33,135 nt of DNA from Candidatus Fermentibacterota bacterium (GTDB lineage Bacteria; Fermentibacterota; Fermentibacteria; Fermentibacterales; JCC-6). The stretch is from contig JAKPTG010000030.1 of assembly GCA_029571005.1 (NCBI GenBank), positions 1-33,135 of the forward strand, written 5' to 3'. A model generated the notes under the pieces. It was not told the DNA's origin and searched no databases. It was given only the letters and a program-made list of their open reading frames with translations. Made by a program: the position numbers and the translations under genes. Shown here piece after piece: positions 21,740 to 31,357 of the stretch (the first letter of the stretch is position 1; the number at the start of each line of letters is the position of its first letter).

Positions 21740-21893
21740 CCCGGATTTCTCACCACCGAATCACAGGGGCCAATCTAAAGTAGCATAATTAAGTGCCAAA
21801 ATACCGCTTACATCATAAAAGAACGGCCGCAATGAAAACATTCCGTTAGCCCGATAAGCAAGGCCCAGTCGGAACTTGAGTTTCAAGCCTTGG
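21740..21893 (+). mobile_element. Single-ended remnant of the same IS1380-family element (TIR + promoter region + transposase start)
   Basis: Base-by-base alignable to the reverse complement of ~1046-1197: cccggatttctcaccaccgaa..ggccaatctaaagtagcataattaagtgccaaaata..aagaacggccgcaatgaaaaca..ccgataa..gagtttcaagccttgg; transposase start ATGAAAACATTCCGT followed by stop TAG. Confidence 0.75.
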
Positions 21894-21991
21894 TGTTTTC
21901 TGTGGGCGCTGCCTATCCCAATATTGATGTCTGTTATATGCTTGGAGGATGGAATGACGATTGTGTTGGTTCATTGAACCCGGAGGTTAAG

Positions 21992-23224
21992 ATGCACGCC
22001 TGCATCCATCGCGGCAGCCATGAGATCGGCGGCAGTTGCGTAGAACTGAGGAGTGACGGGCAGCGGCTTCTCATAGACATGGGTCTGCCCCTTGATGCTC
22101 CCGGCGATTCCGCCCGGTTCGTTCCTCCCATCGCCGGTCTCGATGGAAGCGATCCATCGCTGCTTGGGCTTCTTGTATCCCATCCGCACATAGATCACTA
22201 CGGACTGCTGAACTACCTTAGCCCGAAGATCCCGGTGGGAATGGGCGCCGCTGCCAGGCGGATAGTGAAGGCCGCTTCCCCTTTCATGCGGAATGGTCTG
22301 CCTTCAATTTCCGAAGGATGGGACTTCGAATCAGGTGTGCCCTTCGACATCGGTCCGTTTCGGGTGACACCATTTCTGGTTGACCACAGCGCATACGACG
22401 CTTACGCCCTTCTGGTCGAGAGCGGAGGAAGACGGTTGTTCTACAGTGGGGACTTCCGCTCCAAGGGAAGAAAGGGAAAACTGTTTCATGTGTTCTGCGA
22501 CGATCCTCCCTCCGACATCCATGCTCTTCTTCTGGAAGGCACAACCATCGGGCGCCCGGAGCCCAGAGTCAGTGAGGGCATGGTCCAGATAAGAATGGAG
22601 AGGCTGTTCTCAGCAACCCCGGGGCTTGTCCTGGTTCACTCCTCCATGCAGAACATCGACAGAGTGGTTTCGGTGTTCAAGGCGGGCAGGAAAACTTCCC
22701 GAAAGCTTGTCATCGATCTCTACGGTGCAGCAGTCCTCGAAGCCACGGGCAACGAAAACATCCCTCAGGCAAGCTGGCCGGATGTTGCTCTGTACATTCC
22801 GGAGTTTCAGCTCGAGAAGGCCAAAATGCTGCCGGAACTCATGGAAAGATACAGCAGGTTCAGGATCGACCTCTCGCAGATCTGCTTCAACCCCGGTCGC
22901 TACACCCTGATGTTCCGACCCCGGCACGTGGACGATCTTGGGTCAGAAGGTTGCCTCGACGGCGCTGCGTATGTGTACTCCATGTGGGAGGGGTACAGGG
23001 AACGGGGTGACAACGCCAAGGTAGATGAATGGCTTGCCAAGAAAGGCGTTTCTTCATATAGTATCCACTCCTCGGGGCATGCCGGGACATCAGATTTGCA
23101 GAAACTGGTTTCATGCCTCAATCCCCACAAGGTGATACCCATCCACAGCTTCTCGCCGGAACGCTACCGGGAGGTCTTCCCTTCCGTTGAAATGCACGGC
23201 GACGGAGAGTGGTGGGAAGTGTGA
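21992..23224 (+). CDS. Beta-CASP/RNase J-like metallo-beta-lactamase-fold hydrolase
   Basis: MHACIHRGSHEIGGSCVELRSDGQRLLIDMGLPLD...GLLVSHPHIDHYGLL...FLVDHSAYDAYALLVES...LFYSGDFRSKGRK...HSSGHAGTSDLQKLVSCLNPHKVIPIHSF. Start at 21992 with SD CCGGAGG. Confidence 0.82.
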   Translation: MHACIHRGSHEIGGSCVELRSDGQRLLIDMGLPLDAPGDSARFVPPIAGLDGSDPSLLGLLVSHPHIDHYGLLNYLSPKIPVGMGAAARRIVKAASPFMRNGLPSISEGWDFESGVPFDIGPFRVTPFLVDHSAYDAYALLVESGGRRLFYSGDFRSKGRKGKLFHVFCDDPPSDIHALLLEGTTIGRPEPRVSEGMVQIRMERLFSATPGLVLVHSSMQNIDRVVSVFKAGRKTSRKLVIDLYGAAVLEATGNENIPQASWPDVALYIPEFQLEKAKMLPELMERYSRFRIDLSQICFNPGRYTLMFRPRHVDDLGSEGCLDGAAYVYSMWEGYRERGDNAKVDEWLAKKGVSSYSIHSSGHAGTSDLQKLVSCLNPHKVIPIHSFSPERYREVFPSVEMHGDGEWWEV

Positions 23225-23248
23225 CACCTTTTCCGGGGGAGGACTCGA

Positions 23249-23503
23249 ATGTTCAGGATTGCCGACAAGTACCAGATCAGACTCTGGCTGGATGAAGCCC
23301 TCAAGCTTGGGGCAACACATCTCATAGTAGTGGTAAACAAGTACTGGGATGATTTTCCAGTGTATGTGATGCCCGGGGAGGACACCCGGGAAGTCGCCGC
23401 CCGTTACGATGGCATCGACAGGCAGCGAATCATGGAGGTCTATTCACTCGCCATGGATCTGGAGGCTCAGCTTGACGAGTTCAGAGCCTTCCACTGGGAC
23501 TGA
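23249..23503 (+). CDS. Small conserved hypothetical protein
   Basis: MFRIADKYQIRLWLDEALKLGATHLIVVVNKYWDDFPVYVMPGEDTREVAARYDGIDRQRIMEVYSLAMDLEAQLDEFRAFHWD; SD GGGGGAGG upstream. Confidence 0.75.
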   Translation: MFRIADKYQIRLWLDEALKLGATHLIVVVNKYWDDFPVYVMPGEDTREVAARYDGIDRQRIMEVYSLAMDLEAQLDEFRAFHWD

Positions 23504-23510
23504 TCATGGG

Positions 23511-23816
23511 ATGGGTAACCGATTCGCCGAAAAAGAAGAATGGGAGAAACGACTTGCGAAGCTTCCTCCTCACATTCGGGATGCACACCGCCACTCCATC
23601 CATCACCGCTCCGAGATAGAGGCCAGCGAGATTTGTGGCTGCTTCTATTGCCTTGCGGTCTTTCCTAACGAGGAGATCGTGGATTGGGGGCAGGCCTACG
23701 AACCCGATACAGCCACCTGCCCCCGATGCGGAATTGACAGCGTCATCGGATCGGCTTCGGGTTTCCCGATTGAAAGGGAGTTTCTCGAGGCGATGAAACG
23801 GTACTGGTTCTACTGA
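23511..23816 (+). CDS. Small zinc-ribbon-like cytoplasmic protein
   Basis: MGNRFAEKEEWEKRLAKLPPHIRDAHRHSIHHRSEIEASEICGCFYCLAVFPNEEIVDWGQAYEPDTATCPRCGIDSVIGSASGFPI; CxxC...CPRC pairs. Start at 23511. Confidence 0.75.
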   Translation: MGNRFAEKEEWEKRLAKLPPHIRDAHRHSIHHRSEIEASEICGCFYCLAVFPNEEIVDWGQAYEPDTATCPRCGIDSVIGSASGFPIEREFLEAMKRYWFY

Positions 23817-23828
23817 GAGCAGGACGGG

Positions 23829-24380
23829 ATGGATAGGAACGATTCAGGGGTCGAACCCAACGATTCTGAGTTTGCCGCCCTCTGTGCATCCATTCGGGCA
23901 AACCTCCGGAAAAAGGGCCTTTGGTTTCCCGAGGATGATGATGTGGGCTATACCGCTTCATTTCTTGCGTGGATTGCCGGGATCCTCGCCGGGGAGGGAG
24001 ATGCGAAGGGCAACTGCGTCCCCGCTGACTTCTCCAGGTTTCGTAATCAGGGCAACAGGAAGCTAAGAGAGAACACCATTGCGGGAATGATAGCTTTCCT
24101 ACCCCTGCTGAACACGGTTCCCTACAAGGAGGTCAGGGAACTTCTTAGCCGAGCCCCCATGGCCATTCTTCCCTATCTACCGAGTAGAAGCCGAAAAGCA
24201 GAAAAGCTTTTCGAGAAGAATGACGCGCTCTTCGACTACATAGTAGCGAATGCCCAGTTAGACCTCTGCATACACGGTAGTCTGAGAAAGGGGCTTACCA
24301 GGGATATCTTCATGGCCACCCATCTCTGGTTAGGAGTTACCGTAGATATGGGTCCGAAACTCGACTCTGAGCCCCATTGA
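23829..24380 (+). CDS. Hypothetical protein
   Basis: 183-aa ORF in line with the preceding genes, short intergenic gap; no recognised domain. Confidence 0.6.
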   Translation: MDRNDSGVEPNDSEFAALCASIRANLRKKGLWFPEDDDVGYTASFLAWIAGILAGEGDAKGNCVPADFSRFRNQGNRKLRENTIAGMIAFLPLLNTVPYKEVRELLSRAPMAILPYLPSRSRKAEKLFEKNDALFDYIVANAQLDLCIHGSLRKGLTRDIFMATHLWLGVTVDMGPKLDSEPH

Positions 24381-24511
24381 AAAATGCAGCAATCTTTAGC
24401 GAGTGATCTTGAATATCTTATGCTCATGGTCCATTTTGCCGGCAGACACTCCCGTTGTGGAGAAGAGGTCTGCGTCCGTCAATGCGTCATACGAAGGGCC
24501 ATGCAGTCAGG

Positions 24512-24688
24512 CTCGAGAACGGTTGCACCGAATTCTTCTACTGGAGACTGAGAGACGAGTTAGTCAACGGCGATTTCTCCGACTCGCTTCCGTAGTCTAA
24601 TGTTCTGATCGAGAGCCGGAGGCAAAGGTACAACCCCTTCAGGCCGCACAGTTCCCTGGGCTACAGGCCACCGGCTCATGTTACCTGA
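24512..24688 (+). pseudogene. C-terminal remnant of an IS3-type (rve integrase) transposase
   Basis: Manual translation: LENGCTEFFYWRLRDELVNGDFSDSLP*SNVLIESRRQRYNPFRPHSSLGYRPPAHVT*; matches the typical ENGYxESFNGKLRDELLNGE..EAKVLIExWRxxYNxxRPHSSLGYRPPAP ending; internal TAG. Confidence 0.85.
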
Positions 24689-24828
24689 TCAGATCTTGCG
24701 CCCCGAGACTGGGAAGCGTACAGTATGTGTCCGAACCACCGCGGAGACTATATTGAAAGGGGAAAAAGGAAAAATCAGGCTGGTCAGAGCAGCCATTGAA
24801 CAACAATATACGTAATACGAAAGGATGG

Positions 24829-25708
24829 ATGATAAACGCTATGAAGAGCATCATCGAATTCCGGAATTCCTTAGAGAATGATAAAGATTTTAACTCCAGT
24901 AAGATTGTTGAGGAGTATATCGAGTTTGCAAAACGAAATATTACATTCAGATCCTTGTGTGAAAAACCTAATCAAATTAAGACGTTTGGATTGAGCGGCA
25001 GATCGGGAACCAATGAAACAGAGTCTGAACAAGGTGAAGTGACACTTTGTCAAGCGCTTTTTAATACCTATAAGCCAAAATCAAAACAAAAAATGCGTAT
25101 TAAAGACTATGGTCAATATTATATAGTTGATTACCAAACACCTTTAAAAAATACTGATAAAGACGAATCTTGGGGTAAAATCGATTTAGTCGGTTTTAAA
25201 CAAAACTCATCTGAGAAACATCTTTGCTTCTGGGAAGTCAAGTATGGGGGGAATCGAGAATCTAAACAAGATTATAATGGGAATCGAGAATCTAAACAAA
25301 ATATATAATGGGAATCGAGACTCTATACATTTTGCAGTAATGGAGTTATTAATTTACTATGCACAGTTTGACAGGACAAACAACGATAAGGCGAAAAAAA
25401 ACTTTCAAAATTTCTTGCTGGAGTTAGCTTTCGTACGAGGTGTTGGACTGAACAATAATACAGTAACCATTCATCAAGATAAACCGGTAGATAACCCGGT
25501 GTTATTCATTGCTGGTGACGAAGGTTATTTTAACAATCAATGGAAGTCAACAAAAACAAAGCAGAGGCATATCGAGTTAAAGGAGGTCATAGAAAAAGAG
25601 CTGAAGCTCAAACTTGAGTTTTTACAGATCGGCACAGAACACCATTGGAAAAAAGACGACAAGAGGTATTATTATGGTAAAGATAATGAGTTAAAAATCC
25701 TCCCATGA
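24829..25708 (+). pseudogene. PD-(D/E)XK-like nuclease gene, frameshifted by an internal tandem repeat
   Basis: ORF 24796..25308 and ORF 25244..25708 form one protein: ...SWGKIDLVGFKQNSSEKHLCFWEVKYGG|NRDSIHFAVMELLIYYAQFD...; D...ExK-like motif; AT-rich composition. Confidence 0.65.
25249..25331 (+). repeat. Tandem repeat, 30- and 31-bp units plus partial third unit, inside the nuclease ORF
   Basis: Unit 1 25249-25278 gggaatcgagaatctaaacaagattataat; unit 2 25279-25309 gggaatcgagaatctaaacaaaatatataat; partial unit 3 from 25310 gggaatcgagactctatac. Confidence 0.9.
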
Positions 25709-26172
25709 TGGGCCAAGATTGTATGTCACATTAGATTCGGATATAGTAAAGTAGAACAGCCGCCTCTCCACCGTATCTAACATTGTCTCGCGACATCTCC
25801 ACCCGGTAGAATTGCTGCTTCAATCGGAGGAAGCTGCGATCTAAGGCTCTCCATCGACTTCCCTCAATCATGAAAGCCGGCAAACCCAAATAGAGGATGA
25901 TGACAGTATCGTGGATTGGCGAGGACATATGGACCAGAGTGGCTGAACTCATCGAGGTAAAGAATGATCATCTTTCCCTCCATAAATGTACACGGAGCCC
26001 GCAGCTTTCGCTACGAGCTCCGGGATGCTGCTTGACCAACAAACCCGAAGGAAAGCGGGCTGGCAGCAAGGCGGGTATAACACGACAGTATTCCCCCTGT
26101 CAATCAAGGGGAAAACACCTTGCCGGTGACCATGGTGGAACACAGGTCACTCGTTTCCTCGAATGAAACGGG

Positions 26173-26249
26173 TGGTACGCCCGTAGGGAATCGAACCCCA
26201 AACCTTCTGGTCCGTAGCCAGATGCTCTATCCGATTGAGCTACGGGCGC
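26173..26249 (-). tRNA. tRNA-Arg (ACG)
   Basis: Minus strand GCGCCCGTAGCTCAATCGGATAGAGCATCTGGCTACGGACCAGAAGGTTTGGGGTTCGATTCCCTACGGGCGTACCA; anticodon loop CTACGGA; CCA encoded. Confidence 0.93.
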
Positions 26250-26301: not shown

Positions 26302-27186
26302 TCAGCTCCGGTACACCTCCCGGTATTCCAATCGGCGGGTTTCCCGGGGGGGGATGAGTATTTCCGCGGCGAAGCCCTCCCCCGGTTCCGTCACCGCCCC
26401 CCTGGGAAGTCTTCCGGGGAGAACGATCCGGTAGCGGACATCCCTGTCGGCGGTGGAGCGCATATCCAGCCGGCAGTTGTACGCGTCGCCCCTGAAGGTC
26501 CAGCTCAGGTCGGTTTGAAGAAGGTGGTCGGCGGAAATCCATATCGTGTCCGACCGGAGGAACGCGCCGTTCCCCCCGGGCAGGGTGGGAGGGGTTTCAT
26601 GCACCGGAACGGCGATCACCGGGTTCCATCTGCCCTCAACGGGAAAGCCGTATACCAGAAGCGTGTCCGGAGGGGACGATTCGATCTCCCACCAAGGGAA
26701 AAATACTCCCTGCGGGGGTATGACCAGCGGCCCGCTGCTCCTGGCAAGCGGCCCGCCGCCGGCGTCAAGCTGAACCTTGTCGGCGCGCCATGTCTCCCCG
26801 GTGTTGTTCAGTAGAAGCGCCCCGCCCCGGGTCCTGGGCCCCGGAGTTATCCGCAGTTCCCAGCTCAATCCTTCCAGATGAAGCGACGCCAGGGATTCCC
26901 CGAAGCTGAGGAGAATCGGGAAAGCCGACTCTTCCATGACCTTCTGTATGCCCGTGCTGTCTTCCGGCTTCACGGTGAGTTCCAGAAGGCTGACACCGGG
27001 AGTGGAAAGGGTCCGGGCGAAGTCAACCGGCGAGCCGAGCCGCGGGGTCCCGGTGACCACAGCTTCCCGTTCGGTGCTGAGGAAGATGGTTACTCCCTGC
27101 AGGTCTTCAGATGCGTACCCGGTGTATCCCCTGCCGGTGCAGCCCGTCATGACGAGCACCGCGACACTGGCCAAAAACCGCTTCAT
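26302..27186 (-). CDS. Hypothetical lipoprotein
   Basis: MKRFLASVAVLVMTGC lipobox; 294-aa ORF, no recognised domain; divergent from 27216. Confidence 0.65.
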   Translation of the reverse strand: MKRFLASVAVLVMTGCTGRGYTGYASEDLQGVTIFLSTEREAVVTGTPRLGSPVDFARTLSTPGVSLLELTVKPEDSTGIQKVMEESAFPILLSFGESLASLHLEGLSWELRITPGPRTRGGALLLNNTGETWRADKVQLDAGGGPLARSSGPLVIPPQGVFFPWWEIESSPPDTLLVYGFPVEGRWNPVIAVPVHETPPTLPGGNGAFLRSDTIWISADHLLQTDLSWTFRGDAYNCRLDMRSTADRDVRYRIVLPGRLPRGAVTEPGEGFAAEILIPPRETRRLEYREVYRS

Positions 27187-28555: not shown

Positions 28556-31357
28556 TTACTTCTTCGCCTTCCCCCGCCAGTCTATGAGGATAGGGCCGGC
28601 AATGAAAACCGACGAGAACGTACCCACCAGGATTCCCGACATCAGGGTCAGGGCGAAATCCCTCAGCTCGCCCGAAGTGAAGATGAACAGCATGAGCACC
28701 GCCATGAAGGTGGTGAGGGAAGTGTTGACGGTTCTGCTGAGGGTTTCGTTTATGCTCTTGTTGACTATCGCCTCGAAGGTACGGCCCTTGCGCAGCCTGA
28801 TGTCTTCGCGGATTCTGTCGAAAACCACGATGGTGTTGTTTATGGAGTAGCCGACTATGGTCAGCAGCGCCGCGATTATTGTGAGGGATACCTGTATCCG
28901 CAGAATCGCCAGTAACCCGACGGTGATGATGATGTCGTGGAGCAGCGCGCCCACCGCGGCCACGCCCCACTTGAGCTGGAACCGGTACCAGATGTACAGG
29001 ACGATGAAGAACATGGAGATGAGTATGGCCTTCACCGCCTGGGAGCGGAGTTCGGTGCCCACCCTGGGGCCGATCTGCTTGATGAAGGAAGTCTGCTCGT
29101 CGCCGGCCTCCTCCATCAGCCTGCAGCCGGCCTGCTCCAGAGCCTCGTACACCTGGTCCTTGTCGGTGCTGGCGGTTCTCATCACGAACGCCCTGCCTTC
29201 TCCCGTCCAGTCGGAAAGGGCCTGCACCTGCACACTCAGCAGCCCCTTCTCCTCAAGGACATCGGCCAGCTCTTCCCCGTACTCGTAGGAGGATGTCACG
29301 ACATTGGTCTCCAGCCCGCCGGTGAAGTCAATGGAGAGGTTGAGGCCGCCGTTCACCAGGTAGCCTGCGATTCCCAGCACTATCGCCGAAAGGGAGACCA
29401 GGTACACCTTCCGCCGGACCCGGGTTATCTCCCAGTGGGCGTCGTCGCGGATCAGGTTAAACCTTCCCAGATTGATATCCGTTCTGGAGGGCCGCTGGAG
29501 AAGCATGGAGAATAACGCCCTGGCAAACACAAGGAAGCAGAACATTGTCGCAATAATACCGATGGACAGGGTGACCGCGAAGCCACGGATGGGGCCGGTG
29601 CCGAATCGGTAGAGCACCAACGCGGTGATGAGGGTGGTGATGTTGGCGTCGAGAATGGTGACGAACGCCCGGCTGTAGCCGGCGTCCACCGCCGACCTGA
29701 TCCCCTTGCCGCTTTTGCGCTCCTCCCTGATTCTCTCGTAAATCAGAACGCTCGCATCCACCGCCATGCCTATGGTGAGAATGATACCTGCGATCCCCGG
29801 CATGGTCAGGGTGGAGTTCATACCGCTCAAGCCCAACCGGGTGAGGGGGCCCGGGAAGCACAGGAATCCGAAGATTATCAGCAGGTTGAAGATCAGCGCC
29901 AGCACGGCGAGGAACCCGCCGAAACCGTAGTAAGCGATCAGGAACGCGGCAATCAGAAGAAACGCCACAATCCCCGCGAGAATGCTGTTGCCGATGGATT
30001 TCCTGCCCAGGCTCGGGCCTATGGTCTGTTCCTCGGCGATGATCAGCCGGGCCGGGAGCGAGCCGGCTTTGAGCACGAGCCGAAGATCCCTCGCCTCCTC
30101 CAGGGTGAAGTTGCCGGAGAGCCTGGTGCCGCTGCCGGATATTCTTTCGCGGATGACGGCCACCGAGTAGATGCGGCCGTCAAGAATGATGGACACCCTC
30201 TGCTCGACGTTCTCGCCGGTGATCCGCTCCCAGTTGGCGGCGCCCTGATCATCGAATTCAAGTATCAGGCCGGGTTCCGCCGTAACGGCCTGCTGTCCGC
30301 CTATCTGGACCCGGACATCCTGGAGATTGGCGCCGGTGAGCCGGTAGTACGGGCGCTCGATATGGGTGGAGCGCTCCCAGCCCCGGGTGACGTCGGCGGG
30401 CACAAGGAAAACTCCCACACACCTGCCGATCCCCGGCACGTCCGCCGCCCTCGTGTAGGCGAAGGAAAGGTTGTCCCTCTCCAGAATCGCCCGGGCTTCG
30501 GGGGAATTGACGATGTCCTGGAAGGTCTCGAGATTTTCGCCCTCCACCAGTACCCAGTCGCCGGGGGATACCTGGAGCGACCTGTAATGACGCTCGTCCG
30601 CCAGGGTGATCAGGGAGCCAAGCCTGCCCGAGGACTCGAGAAGCAGCGTCTCATCCGTGGAAGCCCCGGGAAATCCGCCCTCATCCGGCAACGAGAAGCC
30701 GGCGTCACCCGGAGCGGGGGACGAGTCCGCCGCCGCCCCATCGCCGTCCGGCGCTCCGGCCTCCGTCCCGGCCCCGGACAGGGCGGCCTCGATATCGCGG
30801 ATGGTGGGTACCGAAGAGGGTGATGTCACGTTGCCCTTGAGGTTCGGATAAACCACCATTTTGAACTCCAGGAGAGCCTGCCTTTCCACGATGGCCCTTG
30901 CCCTGGCCGGATCCCTCACGCCTGGAAGCTGTACCACGATCCGGTCGCTCCCCTGACGGGTTATGGAAGGTTCCGATACGCCGAACTCGTCTATGCGGTT
31001 GCGGATCACCTCCAGGGCCTGATCCAGGGCCTCGCCGGGGTCAAGCCCCGGAGTCGGCTCCACGGTGTAGGCCAGGTACATGCCGCCCTGAAGGTCGAGG
31101 CCGAGCCTTATGGTGCCCCGGCTGAGATCGTAGAGTTCGTGATACCTCCGGACTTCGGCTTCGCCGCCCGCGGCGTACATTTCGTCCAGCAGGGAGCGGA
31201 AGTAGGGGTTGGAGGTCTCCGGCTGAGCGCTGGCCTCGGCTTTGTCCCTTTCCTGTGAAGGTATCGAGTACCAGCGCAGGGTGGGCCATATCATCAGCAC
31301 CGCCGTGACGAAGACCGCCACGGAACTCCAGATCCGCCATCTGTCGGCTCGCTTCAT
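28556..31357 (-). CDS. secDF: Fused protein translocase subunit SecDF
   Basis: SecD: RLGLDLQGGMYLAYTVE, ALEVIRNRIDEFGVSEPSI, GLSGMNSTLTMPGIAGIILTIGMAVDASVLIYERIREE; SecF: LSIDFTGGLETNV, FIKQIGPRVGTELRSQAVKAI, VVFDRIREDIRLRK, SINETLSRTVNTSLTT. Confidence 0.95.
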   Translation of the reverse strand: MKRADRWRIWSSVAVFVTAVLMIWPTLRWYSIPSQERDKAEASAQPETSNPYFRSLLDEMYAAGGEAEVRRYHELYDLSRGTIRLGLDLQGGMYLAYTVEPTPGLDPGEALDQALEVIRNRIDEFGVSEPSITRQGSDRIVVQLPGVRDPARARAIVERQALLEFKMVVYPNLKGNVTSPSSVPTIRDIEAALSGAGTEAGAPDGDGAAADSSPAPGDAGFSLPDEGGFPGASTDETLLLESSGRLGSLITLADERHYRSLQVSPGDWVLVEGENLETFQDIVNSPEARAILERDNLSFAYTRAADVPGIGRCVGVFLVPADVTRGWERSTHIERPYYRLTGANLQDVRVQIGGQQAVTAEPGLILEFDDQGAANWERITGENVEQRVSIILDGRIYSVAVIRERISGSGTRLSGNFTLEEARDLRLVLKAGSLPARLIIAEEQTIGPSLGRKSIGNSILAGIVAFLLIAAFLIAYYGFGGFLAVLALIFNLLIIFGFLCFPGPLTRLGLSGMNSTLTMPGIAGIILTIGMAVDASVLIYERIREERKSGKGIRSAVDAGYSRAFVTILDANITTLITALVLYRFGTGPIRGFAVTLSIGIIATMFCFLVFARALFSMLLQRPSRTDINLGRFNLIRDDAHWEITRVRRKVYLVSLSAIVLGIAGYLVNGGLNLSIDFTGGLETNVVTSSYEYGEELADVLEEKGLLSVQVQALSDWTGEGRAFVMRTASTDKDQVYEALEQAGCRLMEEAGDEQTSFIKQIGPRVGTELRSQAVKAILISMFFIVLYIWYRFQLKWGVAAVGALLHDIIITVGLLAILRIQVSLTIIAALLTIVGYSINNTIVVFDRIREDIRLRKGRTFEAIVNKSINETLSRTVNTSLTTFMAVLMLFIFTSGELRDFALTLMSGILVGTFSSVFIAGPILIDWRGKAKK

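Follow-up and report, generated by a model that had tools for sequence, protein, structure and literature searches.

The window analysed here, a stretch of 33,135 bp from a Candidatus Fermentibacterota bacterium with a GC content of 59%, contains a gene of only 35% GC (0.34–0.36 over 24750–25750) that is split by a tandem repeat into two open reading frames, 24829–25308 and 25244–25708, lying in different frames. The 5' part (24829–25308, + strand) comprises 159 codons from the ATG at 24829, with a TTG at 24796 as an alternative upstream start, and its stop lies within the second repeat unit. The 3' part (25310–25708, + strand) is in the +1 frame and comprises 132 codons and a stop at 25706–25708; a mechanical listing of open reading frames gives it as 25244–25708, and the frame already opens after 25187. 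At 35% GC, the open stretches of about 140 and 133 codons in the two halves each have a chance probability of ~1e-5 to 2e-5 (~2e-5 for the 3' part), suggesting that the break is recent. Promoter-like sites near the gene are no more frequent than expected by chance.

The AT-rich gene was apparently acquired from foreign DNA. About 460 bp from it lies a tRNA-Arg(ACG) gene (26173–26249, − strand), whose position beside the minus-strand gene at 26302 is conserved in most family members examined. The order of the genes past the tRNA (26302, − strand; 27216, + strand; 27916, − strand) is kept in a genome of the same genus, G001, and partly in other family members. On the other side of the same tRNA-Arg, G001 carries an apparent integrated element (contig C10; locus L013, 3213–11116) encoding a serine recombinase whose reading frame overlaps or reads into the tRNA end, an HTH protein, an EcoRI-type methylase, two GmrSD_N proteins (one with an HNH domain) and a HEPN RiboL-PSP protein. 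This element indicates that the site receives foreign DNA and that the tRNA is a likely insertion site, where foreign restriction-type genes are to be expected; tRNA-Arg(ACG) is thus a probable insertion hot spot. In the window, no direct repeat of the tRNA 3' end bounding an integrated element was found and no recombinase gene was recognised. An integron cassette was considered and rejected, as attC core sites were represented by no more than a single stray RYYYAAC and a single GTTRRRY match.

Upstream of the AT-rich gene, a three-gene cluster (21890–23816, + strand) encodes a Metallo-beta-lactamase/RMMBL protein, an 84-aa protein and a zinc-ribbon-like protein. Two copies of this cluster occur at two other sites of G001, the first protein being ~77% identical, and the cluster may serve RNA processing and be mobile or duplicated. 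Between it and the broken gene lies an orphan ORF of 183 aa (23829–24380, + strand) without a match in Pfam, NCBIfam, PHROGs or PADLOC. A search of the same genome for a second copy of the broken gene or its flanks returned only a 53-bp upstream segment (24470–24522) that is 79% identical to positions 29557–29609 of contig C104.

The original prediction labelled the gene a PD-(D/E)XK-like nuclease, a plausible but unproven label. A putative core is found in the 5' part, with D119 in KIDLVGF and E136-x-K138 (ExK) in FWEVKYG. The nearest family is DUF234 (PF03008), which shows a weak profile similarity to the 5' ORF over residues 84–152, spanning the putative D...ExK core, at 15.6 bits (E = 0.022), below the Pfam gathering cut-off of 22.5. 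DUF234 proteins usually carry a fused ATPase domain, and no such domain is fused here. In a poor single-sequence AlphaFold model of the 5' part (mean pLDDT 45), a helix (73–80) is followed by four predicted strands (88–93, 97–105, 115–124 and 131–139), with D119 and E136-x-K138 placed on the last two. The PD-(D/E)XK (restriction-endonuclease-like) superfamily is characterised by an alpha-beta-beta-beta core with D and ExK on adjacent strands. The helix-then-strands order here would be compatible with such a core, and the KIDLVGF...FWEVKYG motif, placed on neighbouring predicted strands that follow a helix, resembles that of the superfamily. In contrast to members of that superfamily, the gene has no family-level match above cut-off in Pfam, NCBIfam or PADLOC, and a partner methyltransferase gene was not identified beside it. 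Foldseek with the low-confidence model gave no PDB match at E ≤ 0.001, and comparison of the gene with NCBIfam, PHROGs and PADLOC gave no match of weight; the only PADLOC match of the 3' ORF was BstA (E = 0.018 over 27 residues), so that the gene was not assigned to a known anti-phage defence protein. Literature searches on DUF234 and the nuclease superfamily yielded nothing useful.

No relative of the broken gene was found among viral contigs, species genomes, phages, plasmids and several hundred whole genomes. Searches by tblastn in plasmids and phages and by phmmer in the PDB were empty, as were scans of viral contigs with the whole protein, its core, its N and C parts and degenerate DNA motifs. 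Pattern scans of genome contigs returned no locus; two alignments, used for one viral-contig and one genome-contig scan, contained artificial variant rows, which are not real relatives and served to focus the pattern on the putative core, and these also returned no locus. Neither 145 relatives nor genome sets drawn across the breadth of five phyla yielded a homologue, the three marginal matches (E 0.06–0.09) being at chance level. The whole-genome searches covered ~800 genomes, and the locus scans require exact short peptide patterns that distant relatives can escape, so the absence of relatives is an absence at moderate sensitivity. The search for alleles in related genomes, proposed with the original prediction, thus produced neither a homologue nor an alternative allele.

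The repeat that divides the gene consists, in register, of three 26-nt copies on the + strand, spaced 30 and 31 bp apart. Copy A (25243–25268), read in frame as YGGNRESKQD, is followed by the spacer AGAT (25269–25272), copy B (25273–25298) by the spacer AAATA (25299–25303), and copy C (25304–25329) is already in frame with the 3' part. Copies A and B differ at three positions and B and C at two, while the spacers, of 4 and 5 nt, account for the sole length difference between the units. The array is the strongest in the whole window by TRF (score 134, period 31, 2.6 copies), and the longest exact lagged match in the gene, 21 nt, exceeds the ≤11 nt reached in 100 dinucleotide-preserving shuffles of the gene; the three-copy repeat is real and far above chance. 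The unit sequence, gggaatcgagaatctaaacaa, is unique to this array within the 1.87-Mb genome. Recomputation reproduced the coordinates and unit lengths (30 bp, 31 bp and a partial third) reported earlier, together with the ORF ends and the joined product of 272 residues.

The second spacer has one base too many (AAATA versus AGAT), and this lesion leads to the first frame-0 stop, a TAA at 25306–25308 (region 25299–25308). Given units of 30 and 31 bp, only the second shifts the frame. Deletion of both units (61 bp) joins the two ORFs into 272 residues, exactly as originally predicted; this restoration is unspecific, since deletion of unit 2 alone (31 bp) is equally effective and yields 282 residues. 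Deletion of unit 1 alone (30 bp) leaves the gene broken, confining the defect to unit 2. The observation that removing a repeat restores a frame is weak evidence, since any deletion of 3n+1 bases does likewise, and the lag of the best-matched repeat pair should be checked first.

If the extra base is set aside, the three copies translate directly after CFWEVK as YGGNRESKQD, YNGNRESKQN and YNGNRDSIHF. We infer from this that a decapeptide repeat was present in frame, in a loop, before the single nucleotide was inserted; the homologue searches returned no in-frame ancestor. A 61-bp out-of-frame insertion into a gene formerly without a repeat is the alternative. Our preferred reading, in which we place considerable confidence, is that of a horizontally acquired orphan gene that is either a young pseudogene, produced by a 1-nt insertion into an in-frame repeat, or carries a consensus error of the draft assembly. 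An AT-rich orphan gene, probably encoding a stand-alone PD-(D/E)XK-type nuclease, would have been acquired horizontally, probably recently, and would have carried a tandem repeat of three 10-codon units in frame, probably in the loop that follows the ExK strand. Gain of one base in the second spacer would then have shifted the frame and stopped translation within unit 2, leaving as the product read here a 159-residue fragment that is probably non-functional.

The second branch of this reading, that the extra base or the entire repeat is an artefact of consensus or assembly, is a substantial minority possibility contained within the confidence just expressed and not additional to it. The draft genome is fragmented into 125 contigs, the open and the broken frame are one base apart, and the extra base falls within a low-complexity AAAATATATAAT stretch. 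Against this, the copies differ among themselves at several positions, so that a simple duplication during assembly does not explain the repeat itself, and the spacers differ by one substitution in addition to the inserted base, which argues against a simple homopolymer miscall.

The original prediction offered a reversible switch or recent decay, of which the second fits the data, with one lesion and halves that are otherwise open. Phase-variable restriction-modification genes with tandem repeats exist, type III mod genes among them, and the broken gene resembles these in that a tandem repeat lies, out of frame, within what may be a DNA-acting gene. Slipped-strand gain or loss of units would act as a reversible on/off control of the nuclease-like gene: the two ORFs become one when 31 or 61 bp are lost, and frame-changing pairings are available, with a perfect match of 17 bp at lag 31 and of 11 bp at lag 61. 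The copies that match best, over 21 bp without a difference, nevertheless lie at lag 30, a multiple of three and frame-neutral, whereas the main unit of a phase-variable gene should not be such a multiple; the most probable copy-number change would leave the gene broken, and this arithmetic does not favour a switch. Unlike known phase-variable genes, the array holds just 2.6 long units, and its copies are diverged (3/26 positions between A and B, 2/26 between B and C), as would not be expected of an array turning over rapidly; the genome searches, moreover, revealed no second allele. We therefore regard phase variation as unlikely. More doubtful still is the idea that the gene represents a novel family of stand-alone PD-(D/E)XK defence nucleases, in which decapeptide repeats in the loop next to the active-site strand would tune or switch the activity and only the rarer 31-bp pairing would change the frame.

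A full-length product might also be made from the gene as it stands, by +1 ribosomal frameshifting or polymerase slippage at GGGGGG (25246–25251), or by separate translation of the two halves followed by their assembly. Past 25187 and up to 25308 both frames are open together, the run of six G residues lies inside this shared stretch, and a GGAAG-like sequence precedes the ATG at 25244. Nevertheless, a recognised frameshift signal is absent, a six-base run is short for polymerase slippage, and no relatives showing a maintained arrangement were found, making expression by any of these routes very improbable.

Ordinary gene decay or error is the most likely explanation of the broken gene. The switch, if true, would be unusual: phase variation by long repeat units acting on a nuclease, in a bacterium that has not been cultured.
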